DNA from: Candidatus Ligilactobacillus faecavium
GTDB lineage: Bacteria > Bacillota > Bacilli > Lactobacillales > Lactobacillaceae
DNA: 36,628 nucleotides
NCBI GenBank assembly: GCA_019120355.1
Contig: DWVG01000096.1
Span: 1 to 36,628, forward strand
Direction: 5' to 3'
Below the pieces are notes generated by a model that saw only the letters and a list, made by a program, of their open reading frames with translations, made no database searches and had not been told where the DNA came from. Position 1 is the first letter of the stretch, and every line of letters starts with the position of its first letter. Of this stretch, positions 1,993 through 36,245 are shown piece by piece. Position numbers and translations under genes: made by a program.

Positions 1993-3183
1993 TTAATATG
2001 ATAACGTTTCGCCAACGAAAATCAAATTGGCGTTGTTGATTCCATTCTTGTTAACTAAATATGAAACCGAAACACCTAACTTGCGAGCAATACCGCTCAA
2101 AGTGTCGCCTGAACGAACTGTATAGGTACGGTTAACATTCGTCCGCCGTGTTCCGTATTCTTCGCCACCCATGCGACCCATGGCAACATAATGATAAGTG
2201 CCTGAATAACTCATATACCGAGCCCAAGCATAACCATCGCGGATATATACGTGATCGTAAATTAAACTTTCACCCGGTGCATATGAACCAACGATACTTG
2301 CCGAAGTGCTTGGAGCTGTGCGGATGTTCAGCGTGGTGTTCGTTGTGAACGTGCCACGTTGTGCATAGTCTTCATTCGATGGGCCACCGTCAGCCGTCAT
2401 GTTGCTGTTGTTTGCTGGCTTGTTTGTTGCATGTTGCGTATCAACATGGTGTGTGTCAGCATTGCTGATTACAGCGTTCTTATCAAGTCCACCTGTGTAA
2501 TAGTTATCATAAAGCTGGCTAGCGTCAAAATTTCCGTAACTATCTTTCAAGCGTTGCCTATCAGTCCATTGCCAAGCATGCCCTTTAGTATAACGGTCAA
2601 CAGTTAAATTGAATGGATAATTTGCAATCCAACCCATGTATTTCCATGGAACGACATTATCGCCCCATGAACTCATTGAGTAAACGTCGAACCGATACCC
2701 AGCGCTTTCGACAATTTGTTTCATAGCTTCAATTGCCAAGCTGTTTACGTAAGTACCTAATCCACGTTGCTGTGAACTTTCAACGTCAGCGCACAATACA
2801 GCGTTTGTTGGCAAACCGTCTTGTCTTGCAACTTGTACGGCGTATTCTGCTTCTGCTTTGGCACTAGCTACATCAGTATAGCGACAGAAGAAGTAGCCAT
2901 TAATATACAGCCCTGCTTGTTGAGCAGTTTTGATATTTCCTGCTGCGTAAGGGTCAGCATAATAATTGCCTTCACTGATTTTAGTTGTGATTGCTTTAAC
3001 ACCATAGTTATTCCGCATACTTTGAAATTCTGCTAAAGTAAATGATCCGTTATGATTACTCAAATCAATCATATCAACTCGAGCAGCTTCAACTTTAGGC
3101 GGTTCGATATGGTTAGCTAGCCCCGCACCAGCCGTTAAACCAGCTAACATTGCTGTACCAATGATGATTTTATTTTTCTCCAT
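1993..3183 (-). CDS. Endolysin: GH25 muramidase + SH3-like domain + C-terminal LysM
   Basis: [12 protein letters not shown]..., [23 protein letters not shown] (GH25); [23 protein letters not shown] (SH3b); [29 protein letters not shown] (LysM). N-terminal signal-like helix. Confidence 0.93.
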
Positions 3184-3646
3184 ATCCCGGCACTCCTTTC
3201 ATTAATTCTGGAATAATATTCCCGTCTTTATCGCACATTTCGCTAAGTTTGTATACCTTTTCGTGTGGATTTACTGTTTTGTCCTTATCAGTGGTTGGTG
3301 CATTATTTACATTATCCACTTGATATACTGATTCAATATCCTTCTTGAGTTCGCAATAAGCATGTTCAATGCAACCTGCAAGTAAACCTTCATCTTGTTT
3401 GTTGAAACCAGCTTGTTGCAACATGTCTTGGAGCTTATCAATTGCATATTGTTTCTTATCAAGCAATTTATCAGTAAGCCCCGCTTTTTCAGCAACAACT
3501 ACTGCGTCTTGTGCGAATTGTCCCAACGCTTGGAGTAAACTTTTATCAGGAATATATTTTTTAATCAAATTTGCAACATAGCCACAAATGACAGGAATTA
3601 GAACACCTGCCACCGCAACAATAATTTGCGTGATTGTATTAGTCAT
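3170..3646 (-). CDS. Phage holin, LLH-like family
   Basis: N-terminal TM segment [53 protein letters not shown]; position next to endolysin. Confidence 0.8.
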
Positions 3647-3953
3647 CTTTATCCTCTTCTTCCTTTTCTAGAACTTTAATTCGTGCTTCATGATCAACTA
3701 CTTGATCACTAATTTGTTCGACCTTATGCGAAACATCATCAATTGATTTTTGGTGGCTTTGTAATTGATATTTAAGCATATTGATGACATCACTAAGCCT
3801 TTCAATATTTTCGTTTAATGGTTTTGAATTTTTAGCAAAAGTATCATTAACCTTATGAACTAGCCACCCCATAAAACCGCCAAATACTATCGAAAAAATT
3901 GTGATAATGCTGGAAATTTCGTCCCAACCAAGCCCTAAAACATGATGTGGCAT
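3639..3953 (-). CDS. Haemolysin XhlA-like / accessory holin protein
   Basis: One TM segment (ISSIITIFSIVFGGFMGWLV) then a coiled coil; lysis-module position. Confidence 0.6.
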   Translation of the reverse strand: MPHHVLGLGWDEISSIITIFSIVFGGFMGWLVHKVNDTFAKNSKPLNENIERLSDVINMLKYQLQSHQKSIDDVSHKVEQISDQVVDHEARIKVLEKEEEDKDD

Positions 3954-3964
3954 TTCTCACTCTC

Positions 3965-5230
3965 CTAACTTTCTAAAAATTGAACATTATATTTAAAAGT
4001 CAAATCTCTATCAGTACCATTCCAACTAATAGACTTAGTAATTGGGGTAACAGATGGAGTCCAATAAACTAATTTCTTGTTTCCACTGTCATTAACATAT
4101 TCAAAAGCATATAAAGCACTTAAATATTTTGATTGATCAAAAATATCTATTCCTGTATCTATGGACTGATTGAAATGGTAACCTTTTAATTCTGTTAATA
4201 ATTCAAAAACGCCTTGACCTGTTTCGTTCATTGAATACGTATTAGTTTCAGAATTTCGAATGGTATTCCCGAAATTATATGTACATTCTTCTCCTCCCCA
4301 GTCATAGTTATAAACACGTGCACTATATGGAATCATAATGTCTACTCCCATATAATCTCCAATCAAAATTTGTCGTTGCACCAAAGCACGTTGTGTACTT
4401 GGTGGGAAGTTCCCGTTCCAATCTTGCTTGTTAGCAAAACCAAACTCTGTCCAAGCCTGTGGAATGGTGTTAATGTTTGCATAATCACTATATGAACCTT
4501 GAAAAAGTAAAATTTCAGGGTTCCCATTATCGTATGCTGTTTCCATATACGGATGAAAGCTAATATAGTCTGCTTTTCTATTGCTACCTGCATCTGAAAG
4601 TTTTGCGTAACGATTAGATAGAGTTATTAGTACCGTATCAAGAGCTTTAGGATTATAAATGCTTGTTCCTTGCCTATGGCCTGCCCATTGACACGAACAC
4701 AAGTCAATAAACTTACTTGAGCTATATGAGTAAACAGTCTGGCGCATATAATCATTCATATCCATGTAACTATTAATAGTATCTTGATTATTATAGGAAT
4801 AACCATAACTACTCCAAAAACCTCCGGGAGCTTCATTAAAGGCTTCATAGATAACTTTAATCCCCATACTTTCGATATGTTGTACTACTTCTTTGAAAAA
4901 ACGTTTAAACTGACTCTGGAGAGTATCACTCCAATAGCAATGAGTAGAATTATCAGAAGCATTAATATCTTGCTTTTTAGCGGGATAATCAATGATTAAA
5001 GGCAATACAGGAGTAAATCCTTGATTAGCAACTTCCTGAACATTGTCATAAAGATAATTCATCTTACATGTATTAGAATCAAAACTAGCCTGTTCTACGT
5101 TAGAATACAGCCTAATATATTTAGCACCAACAGCCTTTAACTTCTGATAGATATACCTATTAGCAATATCTCCATTGTAATTAGGATGTAATCGCATATT
5201 GTAACCTAACTTGTCATTGAGCTTGATCAT
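3965..5230 (-). CDS. Tail-associated glycoside hydrolase-like protein (clan GH-A/cellulase-type TIM barrel)
   Basis: MIKLNDKLGYNMRLHPNYNGDIANRYIYQKLKAVGAKYIRLY; candidate acid/base in VIYEAFNEAPGG and nucleophile in AWTEFGFA; located in tail-tip operon. Confidence 0.65.
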   Translation of the reverse strand: MIKLNDKLGYNMRLHPNYNGDIANRYIYQKLKAVGAKYIRLYSNVEQASFDSNTCKMNYLYDNVQEVANQGFTPVLPLIIDYPAKKQDINASDNSTHCYWSDTLQSQFKRFFKEVVQHIESMGIKVIYEAFNEAPGGFWSSYGYSYNNQDTINSYMDMNDYMRQTVYSYSSSKFIDLCSCQWAGHRQGTSIYNPKALDTVLITLSNRYAKLSDAGSNRKADYISFHPYMETAYDNGNPEILLFQGSYSDYANINTIPQAWTEFGFANKQDWNGNFPPSTQRALVQRQILIGDYMGVDIMIPYSARVYNYDWGGEECTYNFGNTIRNSETNTYSMNETGQGVFELLTELKGYHFNQSIDTGIDIFDQSKYLSALYAFEYVNDSGNKKLVYWTPSVTPITKSISWNGTDRDLTFKYNVQFLES

Positions 5231-32948: not shown

Positions 32949-33020
32949 CGCGCTTAACCTCCTAAATTCTTTCGTGTCCACATTTACCATTCCATAATTT
33001 AGAATTTTTATCCGGATAAC

Positions 33021-33061
33021 AGCCACTCACGGAGTCGAACCGTGATCATACCGATGTGGCT
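33021..33061 (-). ncRNA. tRNA acceptor/T-arm-like minihelix (3' boundary)
   Basis: AGCCAC-ATCGGTATGA-TCACGG-TTCGACT-CCGTGA-GTGGCT: 6+6 bp, T-loop fits TTCRANY; no D or anticodon arm. Confidence 0.65.
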
Positions 33062-33988
33062 TTTCGATAGTTGGTCAATTACTTTGAATCCTGATTTACG
33101 TTTGCTCATCTCAAAGAATCACAAAGTCGTAATACCTATGCTCCCAAGTCCGAGGAGCAATGACTTAACAGCCTGCGAAAGCTGCTAAGCCGTGGAAGTT
33201 TATAAATTTTTTACAAAGGAAATTGAAAAGCGAATAGCGAAAAATCATAAGGTAAGTTGTTAATTTTGCGTTATTCATTTTTCAAAGAGCTAATTTAATT
33301 TCGTGCTATTTTCGTTTCTAAGAGCTTTTATCTCATTTCAATGTAAATACACCCCATTTCTTTTAAAGCGCCTGTACGGTGAAAATATCCACCACAAAGT
33401 TAAAAACAACATGTCAGAAAGTTTGCAAACAGAAGTTGTTTAATAATAGAAAGAAAGATTCCTACTTTCTATATAAATTTGTTCCCACTTGAAACTATTC
33501 TGTTTGCAGTGTTTCTCGTGGTATAATCTGCTAGCCTTTGACAACTAGCAGACTCTCGTATCATTTTGAAAGTTTATTAAATTGTCGCTTGAGTGCTGAT
33601 TAATATTGAATAAGAGTTGCTTTTTCACTTCACTTTCATCTTTTCAATTTCATTTCTTGCAGACTATTCGCACTCCTAAACACTCTGCCGGCTTAAAGGT
33701 TGATGACCCAATATCCGTTGTGGAATGCAATAAGAATAAGCACTTAAAGGAGATCTTCCATCTCTTTTCTGTATATTTTTAATTGTGGCTGCATTCCATA
33801 ACCACGTTGTATTAAACTGGTCTTTATTTATTTTGCGGTGAAACCATAAACCGCAATGGTTTGCTAACCTTTGACAGTCAGCAAATCGTGAATAGTTATA
33901 GGGGTATGAGATACTTTTGAAAGACTTTTTTATGGAGATTTCTCATCTCCTAATATTTATTTAGCAGCCCGTATCTCAAAGGCTGCAA

Positions 33989-34029
33989 AGCCCTGCCGAA
34001 GACTCGAACTTCGGAAGCCATACAGGACT
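33989..34029 (-). ncRNA. tRNA acceptor/T-arm-like minihelix (internal)
   Basis: AGTCCTG-TATGGCTT-CCGAAG-TTCGAGT-CTTCGG-CAGGGCT: 7+6 bp, T-loop fits TTCRANY. Confidence 0.65.
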
Positions 34030-34130
34030 CTGTCAGATTAATTAAACGTGCATGTATATCTTTTCTAAAACCAATTAAGAGGTGAAATAGGACCAAGGTT
34101 CTTTTCGCCGCTCTGACAGCGTGCGGCAAC

Positions 34131-34169
34131 ATCTAGTGGCGGAGTTGCACCGCCTAAACTGTTCTAGAT
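34131..34169 (-). ncRNA. T-arm-like minihelix (5' boundary)
   Basis: ATCTAG-AACAGTTTA-GGCGG-TGCAACT-CCGCC-A-CTAGAT; loop one change from TTCAACT; begins in the stop codon of the upstream ORF. Confidence 0.5.
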
Positions 34170-34390
34170 CAATCTTCAACATATCCCTGAAGTCTAAATA
34201 GATGAATCATTTCGTTGATTGCCATTTTTGCCTTACATGCGTCATCATACGCATTAACCGGCGAATCAATGTCTTGTTCAAAATCTTGCATATGTTCATC
34301 AATACTCTTTTTAAAAAGCATGATTTGCTTTCGATCTTCGGCTTTCATCGTCTCATCTCCATTTAGGGTTTCATTTTTCCAATCGCCCAA
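34169..34390 (-). CDS. Hypothetical phage protein
   Basis: Likely start MKAEDRKQIMLFKKSIDEHMQDFEQD; operon position. Confidence 0.55.
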   Translation of the reverse strand: MGDWKNETLNGDETMKAEDRKQIMLFKKSIDEHMQDFEQDIDSPVNAYDDACKAKMAINEMIHLFRLQGYVED

Positions 34391-34706: not shown

Positions 34707-35507
34707 TTATGCCTCAGTCCTCTGTCTGTAATCTCCAATGCGTTCTCCATTAAATGTGATACTGTGATTTCTTGCTCCCATAAACAAACGACTTAAGGTT
34801 GCTGAATTATACATGTGATTTAATTCAGCAGTTGAAAAATTACTTGTGATTACCACAGCCTTGTTTTTTCTCAACGAAATATCCGCAATTCTGTACCATG
34901 CGCTTTGAATTAAGTTATTTGCTTCCCGTTCTTCGGTTTGCAAATTAGCTTCTTTCCCTAAATCATCAATCACTAAGATGTCGCATTTTTCTTTGAAACG
35001 TTTGATAAATACTTCAAAATCTGATTTCTTACGTTCTTTTTCTGCCCTAGCGTCATCATAGGTATTAACTAAGTTTCCAATTTTCGTTGCGTTTACAATG
35101 GCGCACATCGTTGGTTTTTTGCTGTTGTGAACAACGTCATTAATCAAACACGCTGCAAGGGTTGTTTTCCCTCGCCCTTGTTTTCCTTGAAATAACACGT
35201 TATATCGTTTGCCGGCTTTGAAATCTTCCGCAATTTGTTTAACTTGCTTTGTGATTTCAACAAATTCATCAGATACTCTTTCAAGTTTTCCGAAACTGCG
35301 TTCTAATACGTCATACTCATTAAGCATTGAATTTTCCCTGACAAACTGTTCAGGCAGTCGTTTAAGATACCTATTAACCTGTTCCTGTTCTTTTGCTTTG
35401 GAAGCAGCAAGTCCTTGTTCTCTTGTTAAAATAGGTATCTGATATTCATTCCCTGTTTTCGGGTCAACAATCTTTTTTCCTGCTAAGTTAGCAAAAGCAT
35501 TCTGCAT
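34707..35507 (-). CDS. DnaC/IstB-like helicase loader ATPase
   Basis: Walker A LFQGKQGRGKTTLAACL; Walker B CDILVIDDLGKE; sensor VVITSNFS. Confidence 0.9.
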   Translation of the reverse strand: MQNAFANLAGKKIVDPKTGNEYQIPILTREQGLAASKAKEQEQVNRYLKRLPEQFVRENSMLNEYDVLERSFGKLERVSDEFVEITKQVKQIAEDFKAGKRYNVLFQGKQGRGKTTLAACLINDVVHNSKKPTMCAIVNATKIGNLVNTYDDARAEKERKKSDFEVFIKRFKEKCDILVIDDLGKEANLQTEEREANNLIQSAWYRIADISLRKNKAVVITSNFSTAELNHMYNSATLSRLFMGARNHSITFNGERIGDYRQRTEA

Positions 35508-35519
35508 GTTTACTCCTTC

Positions 35520-36245
35520 CTAATCAAAGTTGAAATCATTAACCGGTTCGGCTTTTCCAACTCTGCTTTGTTGGTTCAGATAACTTTCAAACTTTGTACC
35601 AAACAATGTTTCAGGTCTTAGGTACTTACTCATACGTTCGTCCTTACTCCATTCAGTTGCCTTGTTATCGATAACGATTTTGAAATCATCAACAGTAAAG
35701 CCTTCATTCATACGAGCTTTAATCAGCGATTGAGTTTTCCGAGTAGTTGCTCGATAATGAGTTCCAATCTTTGAATTCAAATAATCAACGATTTCATGAG
35801 CTGCGGTCGAGTGCGAACTCGACAATATATTCTTTTTATTATTAATACTTGTATTATTATTTCTTGTATTATTATCCGTACAATCTGTGATACCAGGGGT
35901 AGTGTCATCATTTATACTAGGGGTGGTACAATCTGCGATACCAGGGGTGGTACAAATTGAAAGAAATCTCTTTTCAACCTGTTTCGTTTCCTTTTTGTAT
36001 TTAATTGTCCGCTTGATATATCCTTTACAGACAAGTAAATTGATGTAATTAACAACACTTTGCTTTGATATTCCTAACCTTTTTCCGAAATACTCATTTG
36101 TTGCCCAACAATAGCCTTTTTTATTTGCTAATGTCGAAATGTGACCATATAGCAAAATCGCTTTCGGTTTTCTCAATAAGTCTTTATCGTCCCAAACAAA
36201 AGCAGGTATATTCATGTAGTAATGTGGCTGCATTTCTTCACTCAT
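35520..36245 (-). CDS. Phage replication initiator (HTH N-terminus, conserved phage_rep_org C-terminus)
   Basis: GYCWATNEYFGKRLGISKQSVVNYINLLVCKGYIKR; HEIVDYLNSKIGTHYRATTRKTQSLIKARMNEGFTVDDFKIVIDNKATEWSKDERMSKYLRPETLFGTKFESYLN. Confidence 0.88.
   Translation of the reverse strand: MSEEMQPHYYMNIPAFVWDDKDLLRKPKAILLYGHISTLANKKGYCWATNEYFGKRLGISKQSVVNYINLLVCKGYIKRTIKYKKETKQVEKRFLSICTTPGIADCTTPSINDDTTPGITDCTDNNTRNNNTSINNKKNILSSSHSTAAHEIVDYLNSKIGTHYRATTRKTQSLIKARMNEGFTVDDFKIVIDNKATEWSKDERMSKYLRPETLFGTKFESYLNQQSRVGKAEPVNDFNFD
35887..35955. repeat. Three iteron-like repeats (24-bp period) inside the initiator gene; putative replication origin
   Basis: ATACCAGGGGT (35890), ATACTAGGGGT (35914), ATACCAGGGGT (35938), exactly 24 nt apart; flanked by AT-rich sequence at 35825-35880. 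Confidence 0.65.

Follow-up and report, generated by a model that had tools for sequence, protein, structure and literature searches.

A large structured RNA of Ligilactobacillus prophages, with tRNA-like minihelices and a repeated octaloop hairpin

We describe a large structured prophage RNA of Ligilactobacillus, previously uncatalogued, which combines three bare tRNA-like minihelices (TLS) with several copies of a hairpin that carries a conserved 8-nt loop. Judged by sequence comparison, the minus strand of the region studied specifies a large, structured RNA, which has many conserved helices, helices of long range and a pseudoknot. The best explanation of our observations, and one that we regard as fairly probable, is that the TLS would excise this RNA from a polycistronic transcript and that its octaloops would serve as repeated docking sites. 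To our knowledge, few large structured RNAs of bacteria have been described, and so far no function is known for the phage ones, ROOL and GOLLD.

Results

Locus and coding content

The window, by which we mean the whole 36,628-nt stretch of DNA that was analysed, is a siphophage-type prophage contig from a Ligilactobacillus genome, with genes for terminase, tape measure, a DnaC-like loader and replication initiation. The RNA stretch (33027-34170) is set among early-region genes of the prophage, between an ORF of 73 aa and the next gene, and it is adjoined by the replication genes (DnaC-like, 34707-35507; replication initiation, 35520-36245). RNA size is ~0.9-1.15 kb in the window and down to ~0.5 kb in relatives. 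Protein-coding content was rejected, since, from one flanking gene to the other, the ORF list for the RNA strand held nothing of >60 aa, and the homologue alignments contained indels of 1, 2 and 4 nt. Signals for an own promoter or terminator of the RNA were not above those in shuffled sequences. The features are as follows.

34169-34390, minus strand: upstream small ORF, 73 aa (ORF list and sequence)
34128-34169, minus strand: TLS1 minihelix, acceptor ATCTAG/CTAGAT, T stem GGCGG/CCGCC, T loop TGCAACT, then GTT (scan, covariation)
34030-34119, minus strand: helix P2, CTGTCAG (34119-34113) with CTGACAG (34036-34030), enclosing a variable insert (G003 and G025 have compensatory changes)
33987-34028, minus strand: TLS2 minihelix, acceptor GTCCTGT/GCAGGGC, T arm CGAAG-TTCGAGT-CTTCG, then TTT (scan, helix table, covariance model)
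33907-33986, minus strand: pseudoknot, hairpin GCAGCC/GGCTGC (33986-33964), its loop TGAGATAC (33978-33971) being paired to GTATCTCA (33914-33907) (covariation)
33860-33885, minus strand: HP1 octaloop hairpin, loop UGUCAAAG
33722-33797, minus strand: helix LR1, GGAATGCA/TGCATTCC, enclosing an internal domain (helix table and RNAalifold)
33406-33810, minus strand: long-range helix, ACAACGTG (33810-33803) with CATGTTGT (33413-33406) (RNAalifold)
33527-33552, minus strand: HP2 octaloop hairpin, loop UGUCAAAG
33424-33508, minus strand: helix LR2, TGCAAACAGAA (33508-33498) with TTCTGTTTGCA (33434-33424) (helix table and RNAalifold)
33223-33285, minus strand: long hairpin LR3, TTGAAAA/TTTTCAA plus TGAATAACG/CG.TATTCG, including the CTTTGA at 33287-33282 (helix table and RNAalifold)
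33164-33189, minus strand: HP3 octaloop hairpin, loop UUUCGCAG
33139-33159, minus strand: HP3B hairpin, TGCTCC/GGAGCA, immediately 3' of HP3 (GCCTCC/GGAGGC in G025)
33018-33061, minus strand: TLS3 minihelix, acceptor AGCCAC/GTGGCT, T arm CACGG-TTCGACT-CCGTG, then GTT (scan, helix table, covariance model)

TLS3 is likely the 3' boundary of the RNA. Directly 3' of it on the minus strand (33019-33008) we observed a palindrome, TTATCCGGATAA, retained also in the copies from L. aviarius and C15.

Relatives and overall fold

Another contig of the source genome carries a second copy, comprising most of the RNA and 91% identical. Further relatives were found in L. aviarius (two), in G003, G025, G016 and G052, and on one IMG/VR contig; the matching public records are L. 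aviarius DSM 20655 and Ligilactobacillus sp. E04. When the whole RNA was compared by blastn with annotated phage and plasmid records, there were no matches, because the relatives are mainly unannotated prophages. In IMG/VR, TTTAAGTGCTTATTCTTAT gave 2 true matches and 2 chance matches in coding sequence. A scan of genomes and viral sequences for the loop together with AAGTCATWGC returned mostly chance matches, the true ones being Ligilactobacillus and contig 3300006879_000090, and a similar scan with AAGCCTTTGC gave chance matches apart from the contig already known.

RNAalifold analysis of 4 near-full-length sequences predicted 277 pairs, 31 of them with compensatory change. In the helix table, from which entries mislocated by short-string matches (for example Gav2 PKhp and PK2, W J_CCAC) were left out, concerted changes were clear in LR2, the pseudoknot hairpin, P2 and the minihelices. 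LR2, for which the RNAalifold alignment shows 5 pairs with both partners altered, has its counterpart at the same place in L. aviarius (TGAGCTGAT/ATCAGCTCA); in the stem of the pseudoknot hairpin 4 pairs covary in C15, and its loop and the partner of the loop are retained in W, C15, Gav1 and Gav2. A single 521-nt piece folds 4.1 SD below shuffled sequences. Since there were only 4 near-full-length sequences, 2 of which are close to each other, we are less sure of the core fold than of the hairpins.

The octaloop hairpins

A preliminary description of this DNA had pointed to 2 minus-strand hairpins with 9-bp stems and a common octaloop, UGUCAAAG, and we found both exactly as described in sequence and position: HP1 (33885-33860) reads TTTGCTGAC-TGTCAAAG-GTTAGCAAA and HP2 (33552-33527) reads TCTGCTAGT-TGTCAAAG-GCTAGCAGA. 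The element TGTCAAAG occurs 4 times in the window (all occurrences listed), with 9-bp stems around the HP1 and HP2 copies only. HP3 (33189-33164, loop UUUCGCAG) is a third such hairpin, which the description lacked. When the 1.15-kb stretch was shuffled 3000 times with its dinucleotides preserved, a 9-bp hairpin with the HP1/HP2 loop or with the consensus UKUCRNNG did not occur; for 9-bp octaloop hairpins with any loop, 3 were observed vs 0.18 expected, and all 3 belong to the same loop class. The idea of an RNA module in multiple copies was borne out, in that the stems covary and the loop is conserved, and the stem-loop form, on whose conservation the description had staked its reading, is retained in homologues. 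The CTTTCAAAA segment that it placed 5' of both hairpins is there in the window but is not conserved in the L. aviarius homologue.

We aligned 18 distinct octaloop hairpins over 10 stem pairs and observed that 96.7% of the cells were paired, with compensatory change in 9 of the 10 pairs. The covariation score was 0.818, vs 0.396 for shuffled alignments, and it was at most 0.191 in a control in which the partner was slid by 1-3 columns. Loop positions U1, U3, C4 and G8 were invariant in all 18 hairpins, which gives the consensus UKUCRNNG (G or U at position 2, A or G at position 5, positions 6-7 variable). On the minus strand, 34 of the 180 stem cells (19%) are G-U, corresponding to A-C on the opposite strand, so that it is the minus-strand RNA, and not a DNA cruciform, that is selected. 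The fixed frame with its variable interior suggests a motif for structural or protein recognition rather than for simple kissing, and the frame itself (U1-G8 and U3-C4-R5) points to a compact turn whose shape may be what is recognised. Classification as a strict T-loop was rejected, as the A58 equivalent is not retained.

It had also been proposed that TCAAAG in the loops might kiss complementary CTTTGA segments. Such segments are present in the window but are not conserved as free partners, and their conservation and pairing contradict the proposal. The CTTTGA at 33981 is located in the loop of the hairpin whose TGAGATAC pairs with the conserved downstream GTATCTCA, and the C15 copy has no CTTTGA at the equivalent position; the one at 33287-33282 is conserved, but lies within the 7-bp helix TTGAAAA/TTTTCAA; the one at 33116 is not conserved. 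In addition, loops of the same frame differ in their interiors (UUUCGCAG, UUUCAUCG, UGUCGGAG), so that one CTTTGA-type partner cannot pair with all of them.

The homologous Ligilactobacillus prophage RNAs carry 2-5 octaloop copies each. With an octaloop covariance model, for which E-values are rough, we obtained 6 matches in the source genome and 8 in L. aviarius, and at E up to 0.01 there were matches in 8 of 401 genomes of the family. Weaker single octaloops were found 3' of stop codons in Streptococcus phages and in a few other Lactobacillales. In the Streptococcus phages KX077891 and MK448987 a single hairpin is located just 3' of a stop codon, and in G207 and G507 single hairpins are intergenic. 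These loci are without a comparable large RNA, and the loop may thus have a simpler role after stop codons. G507, from another Lactobacillales family, also has a non-coding stretch of ~400 nt (L329, minus strand, 4760-4330) with a TLS, an octaloop hairpin and a 10-bp P2-like helix, TTAATCAGAC/GTCTGATTAA; this stretch is possibly a distant, shorter relative of the prophage RNA.

The tRNA-like minihelices

A scan for a 6-7-bp acceptor, a short linker, a 5-bp T stem and a T loop, with no anticodon arm, found exactly 3 TLS in the window, all within the RNA stretch and all on the minus strand, vs 0.17 per shuffled window. TLS1 is at the 5' end of the RNA, TLS2 is internal and TLS3 is at the 3' end. 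The final base of the TGA stop codon of the upstream ORF (34171-34169) is the first base of TLS1, which also matched the minihelix covariance model R2 at 47.4 bits. TLS1 and TLS3 begin with A-U instead of G-C. Among 19 aligned TLS covariation was 0.780 vs 0.237. ARAGORN called no tRNA or tmRNA gene in the window and the homologous loci, and the tRNA and tmRNA models gave no match in the Rfam scans.

With an acceptor of 6-7 bp, a 5-bp T stem and a canonical T loop, the 3 TLS have the form of minimal RNase P substrates, in which a 7-bp acceptor is stacked on the T stem, and model substrates consisting of acceptor and T arm are cleaved by bacterial RNase P (PMC11143913). They also resemble Bacillota-type RNase Z substrates in that CCA is not encoded and a U lies within 2 nt after the discriminator. 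In 17 of 17 TLS examined the second base past the acceptor stem, just after the discriminator, is U (UU in 16 of the 17); a U just after the discriminator stimulates RNase Z of B. subtilis ~200-fold (PMC10100781). We infer from these features that the TLS are cleaved, and take them as candidate substrates of both enzymes.

The TLS form was also observed in other Lactobacillaceae, often a few nucleotides from a stop codon, and in several cases beside phage genes. Isolated intergenic TLS were found in L345, L361, L362, L363, L369, L350, L351 and L356 (~position 1500 of the locus); L350 has 2 TLS upstream of the terminase small subunit, and some of these Lactobacillaceae TLS are in prophages. On the minus strand of an unrelated phage contig (L203, IMGVR 3300032330_001073, rc 2434-4674), 6 TLS of the type ACCTAGC..GGTTCGATTCC..CTAGGT, directly 3' of stop codons, separate successive small ORFs; this series looks like tRNA punctuation of phage transcripts. 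Single TLS are present in L202 and in L204. We found no account of tRNA-like punctuation in phages in the literature searched, the coverage of which was incomplete, so that its absence is not proved.

More elaborate forms were also seen. In the G052 copy (L339, 480-570) the place of TLS3 is taken by a larger tRNA-like fold, with 2 T-loop-type arms in one 7-bp acceptor stem, and the C15 TLS2 has a D-arm-like hairpin. A conserved tRNA-like element of ~90 nt, with core GACTCCTCTGCTCGGTTGAAAGTCCTAGGTTCCGAAGGCAGTTT and T arm GCAGGTTCGATTCCTGC, occurs near a late-regulator gene in Streptococcus phage phiJH1301-1 (L340, ~3410-3494) and in L328 (minus strand, ~3180-3100), and is not called by ARAGORN.

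Comparison with known RNAs

Rfam searches at the gathering threshold and at E up to 10 gave no relevant family in the RNA stretch. The ROOL model (RF03087, threshold 99.1 bits) matched nothing in the window, not even when E up to 10 was allowed; by the same method ROOL was detected in 5 of 26 Ligilactobacillus genomes (L371-L375), which indicates that the search works in this genus. None of the 5 is a clear carrier of the octaloop RNA, while G005 has one weak octaloop. ROOL resembles the RNA described here as a large structured non-coding RNA of phages and prophages, present in the same bacterial genus and having conserved loops. It differs in its length (~550 nt in Ligilactobacillus), in lacking the octaloop and TLS of this form, and in the promoter-like box and terminator-like hairpin that flank the 2 loci inspected. 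One ROOL locus has a tRNA-like fold carrying a 52-nt insert. The GOLLD model (RF02032, threshold 150 bits) had no match in the RNA stretch at E up to 10, and none in 100 genomes of relatives, where the controls were silent too. GOLLD is likewise a large RNA of Lactobacillales and phages, often near tRNAs (PMC12286853). By analogy, ROOL and GOLLD may at most be functional counterparts of the prophage RNA, which belongs to neither family.

In the tmRNA tRNA-like domain, MALAT1 mascRNA and mitochondrial tRNA punctuation, an acceptor and T arm serve as a processing or recognition mark within a longer RNA. The prophage RNA differs from these in having 3 bare minihelices and no anticodon arm, tag ORF or encoded CCA.

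Discussion

In the mechanism that we propose, the RNA would be transcribed with the early operon as part of a polycistronic transcript, in which the minihelices would act as punctuation, host RNase P cutting on their 5' side and RNase Z on their 3' side. The excised RNA would fold into a large scaffold presenting the same structured loop 2-5 times. The octaloop, closed by U1-G8 and with its UCR turn, would be repeatedly docked or bound by a receptor, which might be a protein or a site in another part of the RNA or in a copy next to it, and the RNA would act as a multivalent scaffold or assembly in phage development.

Two other readings concern what the octaloops contact. They may be sites for a putative phage or host RNA-binding protein, with the RNA as a sponge or scaffold and the single post-stop copies as mRNA targets. 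The invariant loop frame on otherwise free stems agrees with this, as do the single hairpins, which follow stop codons in KX077891 and MK448987 and are intergenic in G207 and G507, and we hold it to be a serious possibility, short of an even chance. Only slightly less likely, in our judgement, is a homo-oligomeric 'ornate' RNA like ROOL and GOLLD, in which the octaloops or other loops would join one molecule of an RNA cage to the next. ROOL and GOLLD build their cages from RNA alone, by means of kissing loops and A-minor contacts (PMC12286853). The prophage RNA resembles them in its size, in coming from phages, in its AU-rich fold of several domains with pseudoknots, and in keeping its loops conserved while the stems vary. 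Yet it matches neither in sequence or structure, its octaloops are not self-complementary, their CTTTGA partners fail, and the ROOL loci of the same genus have neither octaloops nor TLS of this kind.

Descent of the minihelices from tRNA genes, or from att cores left by recombination, would make them remnants instead of processing signals. The larger tRNA-like fold at the end of the G052 copy, with its extra arms, and the D-arm-like hairpin in C15 TLS2 would suit such an origin; the covariation of stems within an unchanged minimal form, at fixed places and 3 per RNA, the recurrence of TLS 3' of stop codons in unrelated phages, and the constant presence of a downstream U make it improbable. An element acting at the DNA level, such as a replication origin or cruciform, is very improbable indeed: replication genes do adjoin the region and inverted repeats abound in it, but the G-U cells of the octaloop stems pair only as minus-strand RNA, and both the T-loops and the abutment on a stop codon are meaningful only in RNA.

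Returning to our own proposal, we suggest, with slightly less than even confidence, that the RNA represents a new class of large phage RNA, in which bare tRNA minihelices serve as excision marks and the UKUCRNNG octaloop as a repeated docking module, and that it is one case of a wider, undescribed phage practice, in which tRNA minihelices lacking the anticodon arm set transcripts apart. As a large structured bacterial RNA family unrelated to ROOL and GOLLD, located at the early/late boundary of prophages, it offers a tractable case, in which a specific receptor is to be expected for the octaloop and exact RNA ends can be predicted from the minihelices. That minihelices also stand between genes in unrelated phages hints at a general device for transcript processing.
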